DNA of 29,808 nucleotides from a virus, in IMG/VR virus record IMGVR_UViG_3300028423_000707, positions 1 to 29,808 of that record; one strand, written 5' to 3'. Position numbers and translations under genes: made by a program. This document shows, piece after piece, positions 4,157 through 16,298 of the stretch. Each line of letters starts with the position of its first letter. Position 1 is the stretch's first letter. Under the pieces are notes generated by a model. The model was not told the DNA's origin and made no database searches. It worked only from the letters and a program-made list of their open reading frames with translations.

Positions 4157-5888
<1,732 letters not shown>

Positions 5889-5889
<1 letters not shown>

Positions 5890-6068
5890 TGCCAACTTAC
5901 GAATACACCTGCAAAAAAGGCCACACCTATATCGAAGTGCGGTCAATGTCAGCTAACCAAAAGGTGTATTCTTGTCCTGAAGAAGGGTGCGGTGCCGAGC
6001 TTATTAGGAAGTTTGGCACCCCACCTATCTCTTTTAAGGGCAGTGGTTTTAGTGCAAGCAAGGGATAA
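5889..6068 (+). CDS. FmdB-type small zinc-ribbon protein
   Basis: 59 residues. It starts 'MPTYEYTCKKGH', the usual opening of FmdB/regulatory zinc-ribbon proteins, and continues with a second knuckle 'SCPEEGCG' and 'KFGTPPISFKGSGF'. The first knuckle is Cys-Lys-Lys-Gly-His, so one ligand may be His. Such proteins are common in phages and actinobacteria and have no firm function. Its ATG overlaps the nrdF stop, suggesting it is the last gene of the nrd operon. Confidence 0.75.
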
Positions 6069-6099
6069 TTCTTGATTTGCATTTGACTGCATATATGAC

Positions 6100-6105
6100 T
6101 AAAAT
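6100..6105 (+). promoter_or_regulatory. -10 box of a probable leaderless whiB transcript
   Basis: TAAAAT ends 8 bases before the whiB ATG at 6114 and no ribosome site lies between (AAAATTTTCTGTAATG). Transcription would start at or within a base or two of the ATG, as in many actinobacterial leaderless mRNAs. No clear -35 box stands at 16-18 bases; TTGACT at 6083-6088 is too close. Confidence 0.4.
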
Positions 6106-6113
6106 TTTCTGTA

Positions 6114-6407
6114 ATGCAAATAGAAAATTTTAACTTCCCAGTGTTCGAATCGGACGAGTCTCCCTTGTGTGCTCAGACCGACCCAGAGATGTTTTATCCA
6201 GAGGAAATCGGTATTGCTTATGGCAATGGGAATTTAAAGTCTGTCTATAGATATGAACGTGAGGCTAAGGCTGTTTGTCGCCAGTGCCCGCTACAAGAAG
6301 CATGCTTGCGATTTGCCCTAGAAAATAGGGAGCAAGGTATCTGGGGAGGTACTACAGAAAATGACCGCAAGAGACTCCGAACAATACTAAGAACTCGTAA
6401 GATTTAG
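6114..6407 (+). CDS. whiB: WhiB-family iron-sulfur transcription factor
   Basis: 97 residues. It has the four cysteines that bind a 4Fe-4S cluster: one in 'SPLCAQTDPEMFYPE', then Cys-x-x-Cys-x5-Cys in 'AVCRQCPLQEAC'. The beta-turn 'GIWGG' follows, then a basic C-terminal helix (NDRKRLRTILRTRKI) for DNA contact. WhiB proteins are confined to actinobacteria and their phages; they bind the sigma-A region 4 and steer promoter choice. A phage copy (compare WhiBTM4 of mycobacteriophage TM4) could reprogram host transcription. A single-gene unit with its own promoter is likely. This is the strongest host marker in the window. Confidence 0.93.
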   Translation: MQIENFNFPVFESDESPLCAQTDPEMFYPEEIGIAYGNGNLKSVYRYEREAKAVCRQCPLQEACLRFALENREQGIWGGTTENDRKRLRTILRTRKI

Positions 6408-6469
6408 CCCTTGGTAGAATTGTCCTGGGAGAGAAACTAATTAGTTAATCAATCCTAGGAGAATCAATA

Positions 6470-6754
6470 ATGGGCATTTTTGCTGAGGTATTCCGTAGGA
6501 CTGCAGCTCTGATTGTTCTGCGTGTTAGCGGAACCTTTGCTGGTGGTTCTATTGCTGGAGTTGAGCTCTGGCAGTCCGCAGCTGTTGCTGCATTCATCGG
6601 TGTCATGGACGTCGCTGAAAACATTTCTCGTGCTTACATGACTGATGGAAAGTTGGACATGGACGAGGTAAACTCTGCGTTTGGTAAGGCTGCTGTTGGT
6701 GATGAGGACCCGCAGTTGGCTGCTAGCCTTCCAGAGGACGACGAAGTTAAGTAA
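6470..6754 (+). CDS. Holin-like membrane protein, copy 1
   Basis: 94 residues behind a strong AGGAGAA ribosome site. An N-terminal basic residue pair precedes one or two hydrophobic segments ('RTAALIVLRVSGTFAGGSIAGVELWQSAAVAAFIGVMDV' region), then 'DGKLDMDEVNSAF' and an acidic tail. The same pattern, including the W(Q/L)SAA and DGK(L/I)D(M/K)DEVN motifs, occurs in the minus-strand protein at 26291-26599. The layout resembles r1t-type phage holins, which oligomerise in the membrane to release endolysin. Separation from the endolysin by 15 kb and the existence of a second copy are unusual. A perfect terminator follows. Confidence 0.6.
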   Translation: MGIFAEVFRRTAALIVLRVSGTFAGGSIAGVELWQSAAVAAFIGVMDVAENISRAYMTDGKLDMDEVNSAFGKAAVGDEDPQLAASLPEDDEVK

Positions 6755-6776
6755 ATATAGAACTTAATTCCAGACA

Positions 6777-6814
6777 CCCCTCTTGAGATTTTTCTCAAGG
6801 GGGGTTAGTCTTTT
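6777..6814 (+). terminator. Strong intrinsic terminator after holin-like gene
   Basis: CCCCTCTTGAGA (6777-6788) pairs with TCTCAAGGGGGG (6793-6804), 12 base pairs with one G-T wobble, around a 4-base T loop. TTAGTCTTTT follows. It separates the whiB/holin unit from the downstream genes. Confidence 0.9.
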
Positions 6815-6817
6815 CCC

Positions 6818-7054
6818 ATGAACTTTAATGAATGGCTAGAATTTGGTATAAAACAAGGGTGGTGTGGGCCTGACGTCTGCTACACTCATGATGGTCTTCC
6901 AACTGCAGAAGCCGAAGAAGAACAGTTTGAGCAGGGCGAAGACCCGTGCTTGCACATTATTCGCTTGTACGAGGACCCTGACCATAGAGCAAAAATACAA
7001 GAAAATCATTCACCATCTATTTGGCGAGCAACTAACAAAGGAATTGACGTTTAA
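6818..7054 (+). CDS. Conserved actinophage hypothetical protein (THDG family)
   Basis: 78 residues. The pattern 'NEWLEFGIKQGWCG..VCYTHDGLP.A..E.EQFEQGEDPC' is one I recognise from many actinobacteriophages, with the constant THDG and DPC motifs and three cysteines. No function is known. It starts just after the terminator with no obvious ribosome site and ends in a TAATG overlap with the next gene. Confidence 0.7.
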   Translation: MNFNEWLEFGIKQGWCGPDVCYTHDGLPTAEAEEEQFEQGEDPCLHIIRLYEDPDHRAKIQENHSPSIWRATNKGIDV

Positions 7055-7185
7055 TGGCAAAGAGAAAAGGCGGTGGAGCACCCGCTCCTAAGCAACCAAC
7101 ATCAGACCGCAAGAACGGTAAGGCTTATAAGCAGCGTCCCAAGGTATTTGACCCCGTAAAGCGGCGACTGGTAACAGATGGCTAG
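7054..7185 (+). CDS. Small basic hypothetical protein
   Basis: 43 residues, rich in Lys, Arg, Gly and Pro, beginning 'MAKRKGGGAPAPKQ' and ending 'VKRRLVTDG'. It overlaps the preceding stop (TAATG) and the next start by 8 bases, which supports it as a true translated frame. The composition suggests nucleic-acid binding or a disordered peptide. I do not recognise the family. Confidence 0.55.
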   Translation: MAKRKGGGAPAPKQPTSDRKNGKAYKQRPKVFDPVKRRLVTDG

Positions 7186-9462: not shown

Positions 9463-10102
9463 AGCTTTGCTCTATTCAAGGGTGTCCACAGCCATGCAGG
9501 TTGAAGATGGTGTCTCTTTGGACGCCCAGGAGAGACAATTAATCACTGCAGCAGAGTTTCACGGGTTTAATGACTGGGAACTAGTGCGTGAAGAGGGTCG
9601 CTCGGGTAAAAGCATCAAAGGTAGGCCTAAGTTGCAGGAAACATTAAAAGTACTTGAACAGAAAGATGCAGACGCCCTTATTGTTACAAGACTTGACAGA
9701 CTGGCACGTTCTACTACAGACTTTCTCCAGATAGTAGATAAGTCTGCTAAAGAAGGATGGCGGTTAATCTTGCTTGATTTGAACCTAGATACATCGACGT
9801 ATCAGGGCAGGTTTGTGACAACAGTGATGTCGGCGCTCGCTGAGATGGAGCGTGGCATAATCGCTGAGCGTGCTAAAGATATTCACAAAGACCGCCGCGC
9901 CCAGGGGATTGAGTGGGGCAAAGACATCGGGCCAAAGGCAGATGACCGACAAGATTTAATAGACGCAATTATTAAATATAGAAGCAAAGGCTTGTCTTTT
10001 AAGAAAATAGCTGACAAGCTAAACCTAGAAGGCTACCCCACAAAAAATGGGGGGCTATGGTATGCTACAACTGTTCAGAACGTGTGGAAGCGAAATCAAT
10101 GA
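9437..10102 (+). CDS. Small serine recombinase (resolvase/invertase family)
   Basis: 221 residues from the ATG at 9437. The catalytic domain shows 'LLYSRVST' with nucleophile Ser17, 'DAQERQL', 'REEGRSGKSIKGRP' and 'VTRLDRLARSTTDF', all hallmarks of serine recombinases, then 'MSALAEMERGIIAERAKD' (the E helix). The C-terminal 45 residues ('GLSFKKIADKLNLEGYPTKNG...VQNVWKR') form a helix-turn-helix DNA-binding part. The length matches resolvases and invertases rather than large serine integrases. It likely acts on a short site such as the 9168-9197 palindrome. It overlaps its neighbours on both sides (26 bases upstream, ATGA downstream) and so is co-expressed with the following cassette. Confidence 0.88.
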   Translation: MSLDAPISKALLYSRVSTAMQVEDGVSLDAQERQLITAAEFHGFNDWELVREEGRSGKSIKGRPKLQETLKVLEQKDADALIVTRLDRLARSTTDFLQIVDKSAKEGWRLILLDLNLDTSTYQGRFVTTVMSALAEMERGIIAERAKDIHKDRRAQGIEWGKDIGPKADDRQDLIDAIIKYRSKGLSFKKIADKLNLEGYPTKNGGLWYATTVQNVWKRNQ

Positions 10103-10824
10103 GACGCAAATCTATAGAATTCTTACCTTCCGAAGACTTTGTCAAATATCTGTCGGAAAAGCCTGTAGTGGCAGCAAAGTCGCTTCCTCGGTGGTTTAGG
10201 GAATATAGTCAGTTTTTTGGACCAATCAACGACAAATTTAAATGGTTAGGTAGTGAAGGAAGTAATGCTTCTGTGAAGGCTTGCGTCCCCTTACTTGATG
10301 GAATGACAGCTGGATACACTATTCCACTTCCTTTTGATATAGAGGTAACTACGCTTCCAGATGGTCAAAAGGAGTTTCGTTGGAGAAGCGAGCAGTTAGA
10401 TGGACTAATTACTGGTCACCACGAGGACCAAGTACCAAGGCAAATGATTCCAAAAGATTTTTCTACAGTTCCTTATAAATTTAGGAGCTTTTGGTCAGTA
10501 AAAACACCCCCTGGGTACTCTGCAATGTTCGTACACCCTTTAAATAGGTTTGACTTACCTTTTGTGTCTATGTCTGCAATAGTAGATACAGATGACTATC
10601 ACATCCCCGTCAACTTCCCTTTCGTTTTGCGGCAAGATTTTTCTGGGATTATTGAAGCTGGTACTCCAATGATTCAAGTGATTCCTTTTAAGAGAGACTC
10701 CTGGGATTCGAGCGTCAAGCCAGAGATAGACCGCGAGCTCATAGAGAGAAATGAAGTTGACATGATGACTCGTATGTGGAAGATGTATAAAAAGCAGTAC
10801 TGGAAGCGCAAGGATTTTAAGTAG
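10099..10824 (+). CDS. Conserved protein of unknown function, paralogue A of the halogenase-linked pair
   Basis: 241 residues from an ATGA overlap with the recombinase. It aligns well with the protein at 11170: 'AAKSLPRWF', 'SVKACVPLLDGMTAGYT', 'TPPGYSAMFVHPLNRFDLPF', 'NFPFVLRQDFSGIIEAGTP', 'IQVIPFKRDSW' and a basic 'YKKQYWKRKDF' tail. The many constant His, Asn, Arg and Asp residues (HPxNRxDLPF) could make a binding or active site; the fold looks all-beta. I do not know a biochemical role; a DUF6065-like relationship is tentative. The position just ahead of two halogenases, with a second copy between, suggests a shared pathway. Confidence 0.7.
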   Translation: MRRKSIEFLPSEDFVKYLSEKPVVAAKSLPRWFREYSQFFGPINDKFKWLGSEGSNASVKACVPLLDGMTAGYTIPLPFDIEVTTLPDGQKEFRWRSEQLDGLITGHHEDQVPRQMIPKDFSTVPYKFRSFWSVKTPPGYSAMFVHPLNRFDLPFVSMSAIVDTDDYHIPVNFPFVLRQDFSGIIEAGTPMIQVIPFKRDSWDSSVKPEIDRELIERNEVDMMTRMWKMYKKQYWKRKDFK

Positions 10825-10826
10825 CA

Positions 10827-11180
10827 ATGTCCAGGAGGAAGCAAAAACTTGTAGACGCCGCTATTAAAAACGGCGCTCCTATTGCTGACTGGACTATTAA
10901 GGAAGAAATGCAGATTAATGGACGCCATGTAACAAAGGGCACTGAGCTAAAGATTCGTGGTGAGCGGGGCCGGTTTAGGTTCGTTAAATACGTCTACAAC
11001 GAAAGATTAGACGTAGACTGGATTGATGTTTGGGGTGGTCCCAAGAGGTGTCCAGCTCTAAGAAGCTTCAGGGTTGACCAGGTGCATAGGGTTCACTATA
11101 AGAATCAAACCAATGAAGCTTTGGCTGAGGAGTATAAGGCTAAGAAAGAACTGTTAAAGAAAGAGCAAGATGATGTTTGA
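10827..11180 (+). CDS. Conserved small basic actinophage protein
   Basis: 117 residues. The core 'INGRHVTKGTELKIRGERGRFRFVKYV', 'WIDVWGGPK', 'RSFRVDQVHRVHYKNQT' is a pattern I recognise from actinobacteriophages; it looks like a small beta-barrel followed by a charged helix. It is highly basic, so nucleic-acid contact is possible. Function is unknown. It lies between the two paralogues and overlaps the second by 11 bases. Confidence 0.65.
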   Translation: MSRRKQKLVDAAIKNGAPIADWTIKEEMQINGRHVTKGTELKIRGERGRFRFVKYVYNERLDVDWIDVWGGPKRCPALRSFRVDQVHRVHYKNQTNEALAEEYKAKKELLKKEQDDV

Positions 11181-11934
11181 GTTTTTTAGAAAAAAGAACA
11201 AGTTGGTTGAGCCGGGTGAACAACTAATAGAGTTTGGAAGAACAGCTGATTGGATTCCTTATCCACAGCCAGCCAGTAAATCTATTCCTGACTGGTATAA
11301 AAATACCCCAAAGTACACTAATGGTAATGAACCAATTATGGGTTCGGAGCATCAATCTAGTAATTTGAGTGTTAAATACTGTATTCCATTCTTAGATGCC
11401 CTGACAGTTGGATACACTGCACATTTATGGTGTGACCTTAAGGTAGAGCAAAGACCGGCAGGGCCTTGGTTTACTTGGCGCGTGGAGCCATCGGTATTAG
11501 ATGGCCGGAATCCTGAAGGTTTAGAGACGTTACCTATCCCGCATGGGCACTCAGATAATCATTTTATTTGGCACCAGCCATTTAGTGTTAGGGTTCCTAA
11601 GGGGTATTCAGTGCTATACACCCACCCTTTTAATAGGTATGACCTTCCATTTACCACTTTGACTGGGATACACGACTCAGACACTATTCTTCCTCCCGGT
11701 AATTTTCCATTTCATCTAAAGGAAGGTTTTGAAGGCATCATACCTTCAGGCACGCCTATATTTCAGATGCTACCTTTTAAACGTGAAGATTGGGTAGGAC
11801 TTGGTAATCCAGAATTACAAAAAGAAGGTCACGACCGTTCAATGAAGTCCGTGAGTATGGTAGCTGGCTATTACAAGAAAAAGCGTTGGTCACGAAAGAA
11901 CTACAGAATGGTTGAGATAGAAGATGACATTTAA
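11170..11934 (+). CDS. Conserved protein of unknown function, paralogue B of the halogenase-linked pair
   Basis: 254 residues; tandem ATGs at 11170 and 11173 are both possible starts. It shares with the 10099 protein the blocks 'SKSIPDWY', 'SVKYCIPFLDALTVGYT', 'VPKGYSVLYTHPFNRYDLPF', 'NFPFHLKEGFEGIIPSGTP', 'FQMLPFKREDW' and a basic C terminus. The HPxNRxDLPF and GTPxxQxxPFKRxxW motifs are the best constant points. There is no signal peptide or membrane helix, so it is cytoplasmic or virion-borne. It overlaps the first halogenase by 11 bases, which points to stoichiometric co-translation with it. Role unknown; a substrate-binding or carrier partner of the halogenase is conjecture. Confidence 0.7.
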   Translation: MMFEFFRKKNKLVEPGEQLIEFGRTADWIPYPQPASKSIPDWYKNTPKYTNGNEPIMGSEHQSSNLSVKYCIPFLDALTVGYTAHLWCDLKVEQRPAGPWFTWRVEPSVLDGRNPEGLETLPIPHGHSDNHFIWHQPFSVRVPKGYSVLYTHPFNRYDLPFTTLTGIHDSDTILPPGNFPFHLKEGFEGIIPSGTPIFQMLPFKREDWVGLGNPELQKEGHDRSMKSVSMVAGYYKKKRWSRKNYRMVEIEDDI

Positions 11935-13516
11935 AGATAACCACAAACAGCGATTCGTAGTTCTAGGGGCTGGTACAGCAGGTACTATAGCTGCTTTATA
12001 TCTACAAACTGTGGATGAAAATTGCAAGATAACTATTGTCAAGTCAGATAGTGTTGGCATACTAGGTTCTGGAGAGGGAACCACACCTGCGTTTGTAAAG
12101 ATGATGGACGCCTGTGGTATACCTTTTGAGAGACTGGTCCGACGCACAGGTGCAACCGTTAAAAACGGAATTAGGTTTTGTGGGTGGAATAAAAACAACA
12201 AACAGCAAAGCGACCAGTTTGTACACTCGTTTGGCGCTGGGTTAGGTTTGGGTATTGTAGATTTAACTCCTTCCGAGCAGGTAGTCCCTTTTAGTGGCGC
12301 ATTTCTTATGAATGCTCAGTATGGAGAGTCACCAGATAAAAGTGATTTAACAGCTAAAGCAGCTAAGCTATACAAGGCAAATTTTGCTCCTCGAGACGGC
12401 AGCCAAGTAGGTGACGACGCAGGTGGTCAGAGAGATATCTCTGAGTTGGCTGCCATATCAAAGTTTGCAGTTCATTTTGACGCTAATGCCTTAGCCGAAG
12501 AACTACTTCTTGTCGCTCAAGAGAGGGGTATAGACGTTGTAGAGGGTAAGGTGAAGGACTTTGTGCAAAACGAAAAAGGGGATGTTACAAGCTTAGTTCT
12601 AAATAATGATTCTTCTATACCTCTAGACTTTTTAATTGATGCTAGTGGTTTTAGCAGGATGTTCCCTAAAGCGTTTAAGTCTAAGTGGGTTAGCTGGAAG
12701 AAGTATCTACCTGTTGACTCTGCTATACCTTTTTTCTTACCAAAAACAAAAAAGATACCAGCTATAACTGACGCTATTGCCATGAACTATGGGTGGATGT
12801 GGAAGATACCTCTACAACACAGATGGGGGTGTGGGTATGTTTTTGATTCTTCGCTTATTTCAGCTGAGGAAGCCGCAGCTGAGGCTGCAGAATTTTTAGG
12901 AGCCAAAGTCGAGTACGACACAGTGCTGACTTTTGAGCCAGGTTACTACAAGACCCCGTGGCAACGCAATGTAGTTTCTATTGGACTAGCTAGCAGTTTC
13001 GTCGAGCCACTAGAGGCAACTTCTATATGGGCAACTATCTTACAGCTTGAAGAACTTTTTACCCGTCCTGAAATGATTCACAATCCTAATCAAGAGAGCA
13101 GAGATTTTTTCAATAAAAGGAATGAGCAACTCCAGCAAAACATTGCTGCAATGATTCAACTTCATTATCAAACTAGGCGGAAGGACACAGAGTTTTGGCA
13201 AAAGTTTGATGGAACTAATCTAGTTCCTAGGCTAGCTGAGATTTATGACATTCTTAAATATAGAACTTTAGATTGGAGAGATATAGAGGGTGGAGACCCT
13301 TGGCACTTAGATTCTTGGTATTACGTTGGTATGGGTGTCAAGCACTCAGACATGCTAAGAAGATTAGGGGAGGCTACGGAATACAACCTCTATAGTCAAA
13401 AAGTTAAGTTTGATTACGAGTACCTGAGGAAACAACAAGCTATGGGGGCGATTAACCATCTTTACGACCATAGAACATTCTTAGAGTTACTAGGAGCAGA
13501 ACCTTGGCAAGATTAG
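11924..13516 (+). CDS. Flavin-dependent halogenase (tryptophan halogenase family), copy 1
   Basis: 530 residues, full length for PrnA/RebH-type enzymes, which use FADH2, O2 and chloride or bromide to halogenate electron-rich rings. It begins with the FAD-binding GAGTAG (residues 15-20) and has 'GSGEGTTP' (49-55). Lys80 in 'GATVKNGIRF' sits where the catalytic lysine (Lys79 of PrnA and RebH) is expected. The halogenase motif WMWKIP (291-296) is intact, and 'GLASSFVEPLEATSI' holds the active-site glutamate region (361-367). All hallmark residues are present, so it looks active. The substrate cannot be told from sequence; free tryptophan, an indole, a peptide or a tRNA/protein side chain are all open. 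It overlaps both neighbours. Confidence 0.92.
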   Translation: MTFKDNHKQRFVVLGAGTAGTIAALYLQTVDENCKITIVKSDSVGILGSGEGTTPAFVKMMDACGIPFERLVRRTGATVKNGIRFCGWNKNNKQQSDQFVHSFGAGLGLGIVDLTPSEQVVPFSGAFLMNAQYGESPDKSDLTAKAAKLYKANFAPRDGSQVGDDAGGQRDISELAAISKFAVHFDANALAEELLLVAQERGIDVVEGKVKDFVQNEKGDVTSLVLNNDSSIPLDFLIDASGFSRMFPKAFKSKWVSWKKYLPVDSAIPFFLPKTKKIPAITDAIAMNYGWMWKIPLQHRWGCGYVFDSSLISAEEAAAEAAEFLGAKVEYDTVLTFEPGYYKTPWQRNVVSIGLASSFVEPLEATSIWATILQLEELFTRPEMIHNPNQESRDFFNKRNEQLQQNIAAMIQLHYQTRRKDTEFWQKFDGTNLVPRLAEIYDILKYRTLDWRDIEGGDPWHLDSWYYVGMGVKHSDMLRRLGEATEYNLYSQKVKFDYEYLRKQQAMGAINHLYDHRTFLELLGAEPWQD

Positions 13517-13794
13517 AGTGGTTGTCCGCTCTAAAAACTATGTTAAAGACCAGCTACTGGGATAAACCAAACACTGTTGAGTTCTTTGCCTTCATGATAA
13601 AAATTATTATTATTATCCCTGGGCTAATCTGGGGCGTCTATATCTGGTGGCTATATCTGTTTTCCTTGGGAACCAGCTTTGCGTTAGTATGGTCTTCGAC
13701 TGTTAAGACGTTGCCAACTATTATTATTTTGAACCTAGCTTGGATATTCTTATCGTCATTTGTACTTATCAGAGAGTTTTTATCATGGATATAA
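13504..13794 (+). CDS. Two-helix membrane protein between the halogenases
   Basis: Up to 96 residues from a TTG at 13504 with an AGGAG 7 bases before it; an ATG at 13540 without ribosome site would give 84 residues. Two long hydrophobic stretches are clear: 'IKIIIIIPGLIWGVYIWWLYL' and 'LPTIIILNLAWIFLSSFVLI'. It overlaps halogenase 1 by 13 bases and halogenase 2 by 10. Nothing identifies a function. Its place between two redox enzymes allows a membrane anchor or transporter subunit as guesses only. Confidence 0.6.
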   Translation: MARLEWLSALKTMLKTSYWDKPNTVEFFAFMIKIIIIIPGLIWGVYIWWLYLFSLGTSFALVWSSTVKTLPTIIILNLAWIFLSSFVLIREFLSWI

Positions 13795-15302
13795 CTATAT
13801 GTGGCGGGGGTACAGCTGGCTGGATTGCTGCCTTCCACCTCCTTCGGGCGTCGAATATTAAAAAACTAACTGTAATAGAGTCATCAAAAGTTGGGATTAT
13901 TGGGGCGGGTGAAGCATCAAGCGGTTTGCTTTACTCTTTGCTGGAAGATGAGTACAGCAATAGCGACTTTTCTATGTATGAAAAAAGTTGGCCAAAAGTT
14001 GACCTTGAGCACTTCAACAATAGTGTCGAAGCAAGTCCAAAGTATGGGATTTTTCATAAAGATTGGGCAAAAAAGCCTGGTGGATACTTTGGACCAATAA
14101 TTGGTAGTCCAACAGAAAAAGTTCATCAAGATTTTTTGTTTCTAGCAGCAGTAGCATCCAGTCAGGGCAGGAAAGGTCATACTGCAAGTGAGTTTGGAAT
14201 TGCTTACGACCTAAACGCTTGGCCAATAAGTGAAGGGCCAGCTTTACACTTTGACGGAAATAAGTTTTCTAAATATATAAGGGATTTCTTACTTAGCTAT
14301 GAAAATCGGCTAAATGTAGTAGACGCAACTATTGATAACGTCAATCTAGACAGCAGGGGTTGGATTGAAAGTGTCAACTTAGATGATGGCTCTGAAGTTA
14401 AAAGCGACTTTTGGTTTGATGCTACAGGTTTTAAGAAAGTTTTAATGAGCAAGATGGGGACAGAGTGGACTTCCTATAAAGATGTGCTACCTGTGGATAG
14501 TGCCATACCTTTTATAGAGGAGTATCAACCCGAGGAACGGGTAAAACCCATGACATTGGCTCAGGCTATGAGCTCTGGCTGGATGTGGAACTCACCTTTG
14601 GACCATAGAAAAGGAGCTGGCTATGTATACTCTAGTCAGTTTGTTAGCGATGAAGATGCCTTAAAAGAAGTTGAAGAAGTAGTTGGTCATGAAGTCGACC
14701 CAATAAAAACAATTAAGTTTGAATCAGGCAGGATTTCAGAAACTTGGAAAAATAACTGCATAGCTATAGGGCTAGCATCATCTTTCTTAGAACCACTAGA
14801 AGCTACATCTATCCACTCCACAATTGTGCAAATGATTGCTTTCACAAGAGAGTACTTAACTCCTACTGTAAATACAACTGTAAAAGAATCCTATATTACT
14901 AGCTACAACGAGCGTATAAGTAAGGTGCTAGAGCATTACAAGGACTTTACCGTTTTTCACTACCAAGGGGGGAGGACTGACTCCGAGTTTTGGAGATATA
15001 TAACTAATGAGAAAGCCACTACTCCAGTTGTTGAAAATTACATTGAAAAGGCTCAAAACAACATTATCCCTGGCGATACATATTTTAATGACAAGTTTGC
15101 ACTCGATGGACTTTGGAAGTGGACCTTATCTGGGCTTGACTTAATCACTCCTGCCCAGGCAAATAAGCAATTAAAATTTCATAATATGTACAGGTTGTCT
15201 ACTGATAAGCTTGCTATGTACATACAAGAAAACAAAGAAATTTATAGACAAAGAGGTATCCCATTTATCTTTTTGCCAAGAGGAGCTGGTTGGGAACGTT
15301 GA
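13785..15302 (+). CDS. Flavin-dependent halogenase (tryptophan halogenase family), divergent copy 2
   Basis: 505 residues from the ATG at 13785 (AGAGAG upstream). FAD motif GGGTAG (residues 7-12), then 'GAGEASS' (40-46) lacking the usual Thr-Pro. Lys86 in 'EASPKYGIFHKDW' matches the catalytic lysine position. The halogenase motif reads WMWNSP (266-271), with Ser where Ile is normal in WxWxIP. 'GLASSFLEPLEATSI' (329-343) is kept, and 'LPVDSAIPF' is shared with copy 1. Overall it is clearly a paralogue, not a recent duplicate. The altered motif suggests a different substrate pocket or weaker halogenation. Its TGA overlaps the next TTG start. Confidence 0.9.
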   Translation: MDITICGGGTAGWIAAFHLLRASNIKKLTVIESSKVGIIGAGEASSGLLYSLLEDEYSNSDFSMYEKSWPKVDLEHFNNSVEASPKYGIFHKDWAKKPGGYFGPIIGSPTEKVHQDFLFLAAVASSQGRKGHTASEFGIAYDLNAWPISEGPALHFDGNKFSKYIRDFLLSYENRLNVVDATIDNVNLDSRGWIESVNLDDGSEVKSDFWFDATGFKKVLMSKMGTEWTSYKDVLPVDSAIPFIEEYQPEERVKPMTLAQAMSSGWMWNSPLDHRKGAGYVYSSQFVSDEDALKEVEEVVGHEVDPIKTIKFESGRISETWKNNCIAIGLASSFLEPLEATSIHSTIVQMIAFTREYLTPTVNTTVKESYITSYNERISKVLEHYKDFTVFHYQGGRTDSEFWRYITNEKATTPVVENYIEKAQNNIIPGDTYFNDKFALDGLWKWTLSGLDLITPAQANKQLKFHNMYRLSTDKLAMYIQENKEIYRQRGIPFIFLPRGAGWER

Positions 15303-15569: not shown

Positions 15570-16298
15570 TTGATTTACGAGTGGAAACCAGCCCAGGGCG
15601 TACGTAATTATGGCGACGCTCTAGGTGAGATAGTAGCCGAGGCTCTAGATGTAGAGTCAATGGATAAGTCAATCGACAAAGTTTACTTCCCTATTGGAAG
15701 TGTTATTAGCAACGAACATATTGAATACTGGGTCAAACTAAAACGGACGCCAGTATTTATTGGCTGTGGCTGGAGGGGTACAGAGCTAGACCCCGAGCTA
15801 GTTAAGAAGTGCGCATTCATTGGAGTTCGTGGACCAATAACTGCAAACGCTGTTGAAGCTTGTGGGCTAGACCGTCCTACTGTCACCGGCGACAGCGCCT
15901 ACATCGCTTTCGACCACCTTGCGATAGACGCCCCTACTGTAGACAGAATGGGAACGCTTCTAGTTCCACATATTGCAAGTAAGGTGAAAAGGTCGACAAC
16001 TCCGGAAAAGTTTGGTGTGGACAGAATTGTTTTGCCAAGGGTGATTACCAGGCAAGACACTGTGGACATGGTTAATACAATTGCAATGAGTGAGTTTGTG
16101 TTGGCTGGTGCTATGCACGCCGCTATTACATCTCATGCGTTTGGTGTTCCCTTTGCACCTTTTAATCCAGGCAACGAACCCAAGATGAAGTGGTATGACT
16201 GGTTCGAGTCCATTGGAGTGCCCCGCAGAGAGATTAGGTTCTGCAAAGATTATCAGCAGGGCTATGAATGGTATAAATCAATTTCACAATATCTTTGA
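15570..16298 (+). CDS. Polysaccharide pyruvyl transferase-like protein
   Basis: 242 residues from a TTG at 15570. It fits the PS_pyruv_trans family: 'NYGDALGEI' near the N terminus, 'FIGCGWRG', 'RGPITANAV', 'VTGDSAYI' and the strongly typical 'FVLAGAMHAAITSHAFGVPFAPF'. Family members transfer pyruvate from phosphoenolpyruvate to sugars of surface polysaccharides, making ketals that change charge and can mask receptors. It is shorter than many bacterial members (about 300-350), so it could be a trimmed phage form. It closes the halogenase block. A role in altering the host surface or phage glycans is inference. Confidence 0.75.
   Translation: MIYEWKPAQGVRNYGDALGEIVAEALDVESMDKSIDKVYFPIGSVISNEHIEYWVKLKRTPVFIGCGWRGTELDPELVKKCAFIGVRGPITANAVEACGLDRPTVTGDSAYIAFDHLAIDAPTVDRMGTLLVPHIASKVKRSTTPEKFGVDRIVLPRVITRQDTVDMVNTIAMSEFVLAGAMHAAITSHAFGVPFAPFNPGNEPKMKWYDWFESIGVPRREIRFCKDYQQGYEWYKSISQYL

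Follow-up and report, generated by a model that had tools for sequence, protein, structure and literature searches.

Two different flavin-dependent halogenase genes in tandem in a freshwater phage fragment, the second with an altered WxWxIP motif and a divergent predicted substrate pocket

The closest described systems to the gene pair studied here are the phage enzyme VirX1 of cyanophage Syn10 (PDB 6QGM), the tryptophan 5-/6-halogenases PyrH and SttH, and BrvH (PDB 6FRL). In PrnA, the tryptophan indole is in stacking contact with residues H101, F103 and W455 (PMC5659210). The Trp1, Trp2 and Trp4 motifs have been defined (PMC8269204), and BrvH is a PF04820 enzyme of a group that lacks Trp4 (PMC8269204). 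The WxWxIP motif has been proposed to prevent monooxygenation (PMC10696468; PMC9469721), the role of its single residues is unclear, and engineering of the motif has been called for (2023 review, PMC10696468). Some real halogenases lack WxWxIP (PMC8407142), and for this reason the motif was not counted as defining for the wider family.

The window (the whole 29.8 kb virus record that was analysed) is a freshwater phage fragment with two different flavin-dependent halogenase genes in tandem, called here hal1 and hal2. It also encodes a class Ib ribonucleotide reductase, with NrdI recognised by profile and NrdE and NrdF by their resemblance at the DNA level to reductase genes of phages, as well as a WhiB regulator and an M23/LysM hydrolase. 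WhiB is typical of actinobacteria and of phages of actinobacteria (PMC10611076), and an actinobacterial host is therefore likely. Window positions 5049-7178 cover a short NrdF frame (227 aa) and, after it, a long region that lacks ORFs >100 aa, which could mean an intron, an intein or a broken frame. A polysaccharide pyruvyl transferase-like gene (PF04230) lies downstream of hal2 (window 15570-16298). The halogenase locus contains the following genes:

10057..10824, plus strand: DUF6065-like protein (PHROG 7084), upstream neighbour, from a profile match
11170..11934, plus strand: second PHROG 7084 protein, directly 5' of hal1, from a PHROG 7084 match
11924..13516, plus strand: hal1, PF04820 halogenase of 530 aa, from PF04820, the tree and the site table
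13504..13794, plus strand: predicted membrane protein of ~96 aa with a TTG start after AGGAG, from homologs, the start and hydropathy
13785..15302, plus strand: hal2, PF04820 flavin-dependent halogenase of 505 aa with ATG at 13785, from PF04820, PHROG 2928 and an AlphaFold model

PHROG 7084 genes were considered as halogenase partners and rejected. They are present in 23 of 48 halogenase records and are equally common in NrdF-bearing phages (26 of 50), a control set in which only four carry a halogenase, and so they have no specific link to halogenases. The model of the DUF6065-like protein (pLDDT 69.8) matched dUTPase-like structures weakly (E 1e-4, low TM), a slight hint of such a fold for this PHROG 7084 protein.

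Both halogenase genes score far above the PF04820 cut-off of 21 bits (323.3 for hal1 and 269.6 for hal2), indicating that the halogenase motif in them is not a chance match. In hal1 the motifs are GEGTTP, a catalytic Lys in ATVKNGI, WMWKIP and EPLEATSI, and the equivalents of PrnA H101/F103 are retained in the alignment. The sites of hal2 are as follows:

13803..13820, plus strand: GGGTAG, residues 7-12, the GxGxxG FAD-binding motif, from the translation
13908..13925, plus strand: GEASSG, residues 42-47, with Gly47 at PrnA P53 (Trp1 substrate loop), from the alignment
14040..14042, plus strand: Lys86 (in ASPKYGI), equivalent to the PrnA catalytic K79, from the alignment
14091..14099, plus strand: Gly103-Pro104-Ile105, in place of the PrnA indole-stacking H101/F103, from the alignment
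14580..14597, plus strand: WMWNSP, residues 266-271, a WxWxIP variant with Ser270 at PrnA I276, from the translation and alignment
14799..14810, plus strand: Glu339 (PrnA E346) and Thr341/Ser342 (halide-site T348/G349), in EPLEATSI, from the alignment

Alignment with PrnA places Lys86 on K79, Glu339 on E346 and Ser270 on I276. The E346 assignment is confirmed by PDB 2jkc, the PrnA E346D mutant, which shows D in that aligned column, and the Lys86 column is invariant in alignments A1 and A2. The original prediction that hal2 keeps its catalytic lysine and glutamate region is thus confirmed. The AlphaFold model of hal2 (pLDDT 86.5) has the halogenase fold, including the C-terminal helices, and superimposes on SttH and PyrH with Z 41 and rmsd 2.4 over 470 residues. 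On the strength of the profile match, of the model, and of a FAD motif, Lys86, Glu339 and Thr341 that line up with PrnA, hal2 was filed as a flavin-dependent halogenase. Assignment as a tryptophan halogenase was withheld, since it has none of the Trp1, Trp2 and Trp4 motifs. GEASSG stands where the Trp1 loop would have ATIP, ATVP or ATFS after GE, Gly103 and Ile105 replace the stacking His and Phe of Trp2 (PrnA H101, F103), and a reading of the translation found no YYxxF or (Y/H)YHG string of Trp4 in the C-terminal part.

The Ile at position 5 of WxWxIP is absent from hal2. The translations bear out the earlier observation that hal1 has WMWKIP and hal2 WMWNSP, with Ser in place of Ile. Of the 221 viral homologs, a set that includes the window genes, 183 have Ile at position 5, 13 have Thr, 11 Val, six Ser, five Ala and three Gly; the 80 cellular homologs have Ile in 78 and Val in two. 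It had been suggested that many active halogenases with the same NSP variant would make the change unremarkable; the exact NSP string was found in hal2 alone among the 301 homologs surveyed. The strings WHWRSP and WNWRSP occur in a clade other than that of hal2, and a search of viral contigs for DNA encoding exactly GWMWNSP, covering TCN serine codons (AGY codons lay outside the search), returned no match. No WxWxIP variants with measured activity were found. Ser or Thr at the PrnA I276 place requires at least nine changes on the tree of 128 representatives. The nearest relatives of hal2, a sister group of phage halogenases (L015-L019), are all WMWRTP and keep Lys and Glu. The syntenic orthologs of hal2, which were found through NrdF, have WMWNTP (G049, 49% identity) and WMWQAN (G063, 46%). 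Replacement of the Ile by Thr, Ser or Ala is thus a trait of hal2's own branch and not the sign of a dead enzyme. In the G063 ortholog the motif has moved further, with Ala for Ile and Asn for Pro, possibly a reflection of relaxed constraint. In this phage (L308, L311), copy 1 has WMCKIP and copy 2 WMWQAN, so that both shield motifs are altered while Lys and Glu remain.

The two genes fall in separate, well-supported clades of the tree and are ~30% identical; they are old, distinct lineages and not the product of a recent duplication. We defined the hal2-type viral halogenase clade, which is mostly viral, by tree placement, and hal2 groups with hal2-type representatives in starred branches of 2, 9 and 39 rows. 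Genes of hal1 type and hal2 type occur together in 10 other loci. The two clades differ at residues of the predicted substrate pocket. The place of PrnA P53 is Pro in 21 of 23 hal1-type and Gly in 38 of 39 hal2-type representatives. The place of PrnA H101 is His in all 23 hal1-type representatives, and mostly Gly, Ala or Ser in the hal2 type (His in 2/39). Because the pocket residues at PrnA P53, H101 and F103 differ, different substrates for hal1 and hal2 are favoured.

The original prediction proposed specialisation of the two copies, with two substrates among its options, and this part is supported by the separate clades and the pocket residues. The Ile-to-Ser change does not hold up as its mark, since the hal2-type pocket is also present in the 30 of 39 hal2-type representatives that keep the Ile, and the residue has changed repeatedly on the tree. 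The pocket split is the stronger argument for specialisation. The loop difference that had been described was partly right: hal2 does have GEA without the Thr-Pro, but the loop of hal1 is GEG, not GEA, and the missing Pro in hal2 is a trait of the whole hal2-type clade. Gln occupies the place of the catalytic Glu (PrnA E346) in 13 of 39 hal2-type representatives, including L012 (S-PM2), L022 and L030. Glu to Gln at this place was reported to inactivate a characterised halogenase (PMC8407142), and parts of the hal2-type clade may therefore not halogenate.

Paired copies in related phages bear on which gene has moved away from catalysis. The hal1-type/hal2-type pair is in syntenic order in G049 and G063; in G068 the arrangement is cut by the contig end. 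In G049 the order is that of the window: a PHROG 7084 protein, a DUF7246-like protein, a second PHROG 7084 protein, hal1, the membrane protein and hal2. The hal2 orthologs in G049 and G063 keep the catalytic Lys, the Glu and the halide-site Thr. Copy 1 of G049 (L312:1321-2910, minus strand) has an intact frame of ~530 aa with Cys in place of Lys79, Tyr in place of W272, Thr for I276 and Val for T348, and it has no GEG loop. It is probably a pseudo-halogenase, judging from these residues, retained beside a halogenase with its catalytic residues; a search for further relatives of it returned only itself. Copy 1 of G063 carries Cys at the W274 place. Because of these changes, the larger departure from catalysis in this phage group is in copy 1.

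In the WMWRTP sister group, dN/dS is 0.05-0.07 (synonymous sites are saturated against hal2 itself), which indicates strong purifying selection on these sequences. Neither hal1 nor the membrane protein was found on the L015-L019 contigs. A single PF04820 gene, of hal2 type, is present on contigs G001 (66 kb), G002 (20 kb) and G005 (32 kb), all of which are fragments. Other viral contigs have up to five or six PF04820 matches, often in tandem (G006, G015, G017, G018, G020, G021, G022, G036 and G040).

The membrane-protein frame between the two genes was unannotated. It begins before hal1 ends and ends after hal2 has begun, and it contains hydrophobic segments. Across 11 membrane-protein sequences, 24 residues are invariant (alignment A5); those of the sequences that were scanned matched nothing in Pfam, PHROGs or NCBIfam at E<0.1, and tblastn against 50,697 GenBank phage records gave no match. 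Among 80 viral loci with this protein, 61 have a halogenase ORF, which is <=500 bp away in 60, and the gaps between the two genes are often -1 or 6 bases. The nearest reference type of these 61 halogenases is hal1-type in 43, hal2-type in two and another clade in 16 (mostly VirX1-like). The other 19 loci have no nearby halogenase ORF; in the 16 of these inspected, the membrane protein is flanked by a predicted primase-like gene on one side and a different conserved gene on the other. In the 50 NrdF-bearing phages, the membrane protein occurs in three of four with a halogenase and in none of 46 without (Fisher p 2e-4, for phages that are not independent). The gene neighbourhoods thus indicate a strong link between membrane protein and halogenase, although not an exclusive one. 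Of 48 halogenase records, 11 contain the protein, against none of the 80 cellular halogenase loci, suggesting that it serves a subset of halogenases. We hypothesize that it keeps hal1 at the membrane or feeds it there.

The explanation to which we lean, from sequence and the predicted model, is that hal2 is a second catalytically competent viral halogenase, present beside hal1 because their substrates differ. FADH2 from a host reductase would react with O2 and halide at the hal2 flavin, and hypohalous acid would pass through the tunnel to Lys86/Glu339, where an electron-rich compound other than free tryptophan would be halogenated. Ser at the WxWxIP Ile would alter slightly the strand shielding the substrate from the flavin, a change tolerated in this lineage as Ser, Thr or Ala, with both shielding Trp kept; Ser270 probably tunes the tunnel and does not abolish activity. 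From the presence of a membrane-protein gene between hal1 and hal2, the hal1 step, at least, may take place at the membrane. A broader proposal, which we offer tentatively and with less confidence, is that hal1, the membrane protein and hal2 form a phage-encoded, membrane-associated halogenation module with a dedicated membrane partner of an undescribed family. In such a module the two enzymes might differ in substrate range, and some members might include a pseudo-enzyme, of which copy 1 of G049 would be the example.

Both copies could instead act on the same kind of substrate, with their differences, NSP included, being drift in redundant or dosage genes. Many viral records do have two to six PF04820 matches, and WxWxIP is labile in this phage group (WMWNSP, WMWNTP, WMWQAN, WMCKIP). 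However, the pocket residues are fixed inside each clade and different between clades, and the low identity of hal1 and hal2, with no recent duplication, also makes redundancy unlikely. Less probable again is that hal2 has turned into a hydroxylase or other flavin monooxygenase through its altered substrate-shielding strand. The proposed role of WxWxIP in preventing monooxygenation (PMC10696468; PMC9469721) and the replacement of I276 in hal2 and all near orthologs would fit such a change, but hal2 keeps both motif Trp, and it also keeps the halide-site Thr and a Lys/Glu pair for which a hydroxylase would have no use.

The suggestion that hal2 has no catalysis of its own and serves hal1 in a structural or regulatory role, also raised in the original prediction, fares poorly and we consider it improbable. 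The genes adjoin and are joined through the overlapping membrane-protein gene, and a probable pseudo-halogenase partner exists in this phage group; that partner is copy 1 of G049, however, where the catalytic Lys is lost from copy 1 and not from copy 2. The catalytic residues are conserved in hal2 and its orthologs, the WMWRTP group is under purifying selection and occurs on contigs as long as 66 kb on which no other halogenase was detected, and hal2-type enzymes occur without hal1, on contigs that are fragmentary. Decay of hal2 is very improbable, and the departure from WxWxIP is what speaks for it; the 505-aa frame is intact, the fold is predicted with high confidence, and orthologs at 46-49% identity have intact frames.

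The hal2 lineage supplies natural WxWxIP variants (NSP, NTP, RTP and QAN, with CKIP in copy 1). Because natural variants keep the catalytic pair, the role of single residues in the motif is directly testable. The small membrane protein would be a first genetic handle on the site and target of phage halogenases during infection.

Among the known systems, VirX1 is, like hal2, a phage-encoded PF04820 enzyme, with the same fold (Z 35.7) and the catalytic Lys/Glu. VirX1 differs in belonging to another clade on the tree, and it keeps Ile in WVWNIP and Ser in EPLES where hal2 has WMWNSP and EPLEA. Syn10, too, has two adjacent halogenase genes, and VirX1 (L010) is the downstream one. Structurally, the hal2 model matches PyrH and SttH best (Z 41.4), and its FAD motif, Lys, Glu and halide-site Thr line up with theirs, but identity is ~25%, and hal2 lacks their Trp1 loop (GEATFS) and Trp2 motif (HPF) and has Ser for Ile. 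BrvH shares the fold (Z 39.4), and its halide pair is Thr-Ser (PMC5945002), as in hal2; it differs in being cellular and in keeping WxWxIP, whereas hal2 comes from a viral record and has the motif altered. The IMG/VR phage halogenases L015-L019, G049 and G063 are the nearest relatives (43-50% identity), and like hal2 they have the Ile replaced (by Thr or Ala) and the Trp1-loop Pro changed to Gly, with Lys and Glu kept.
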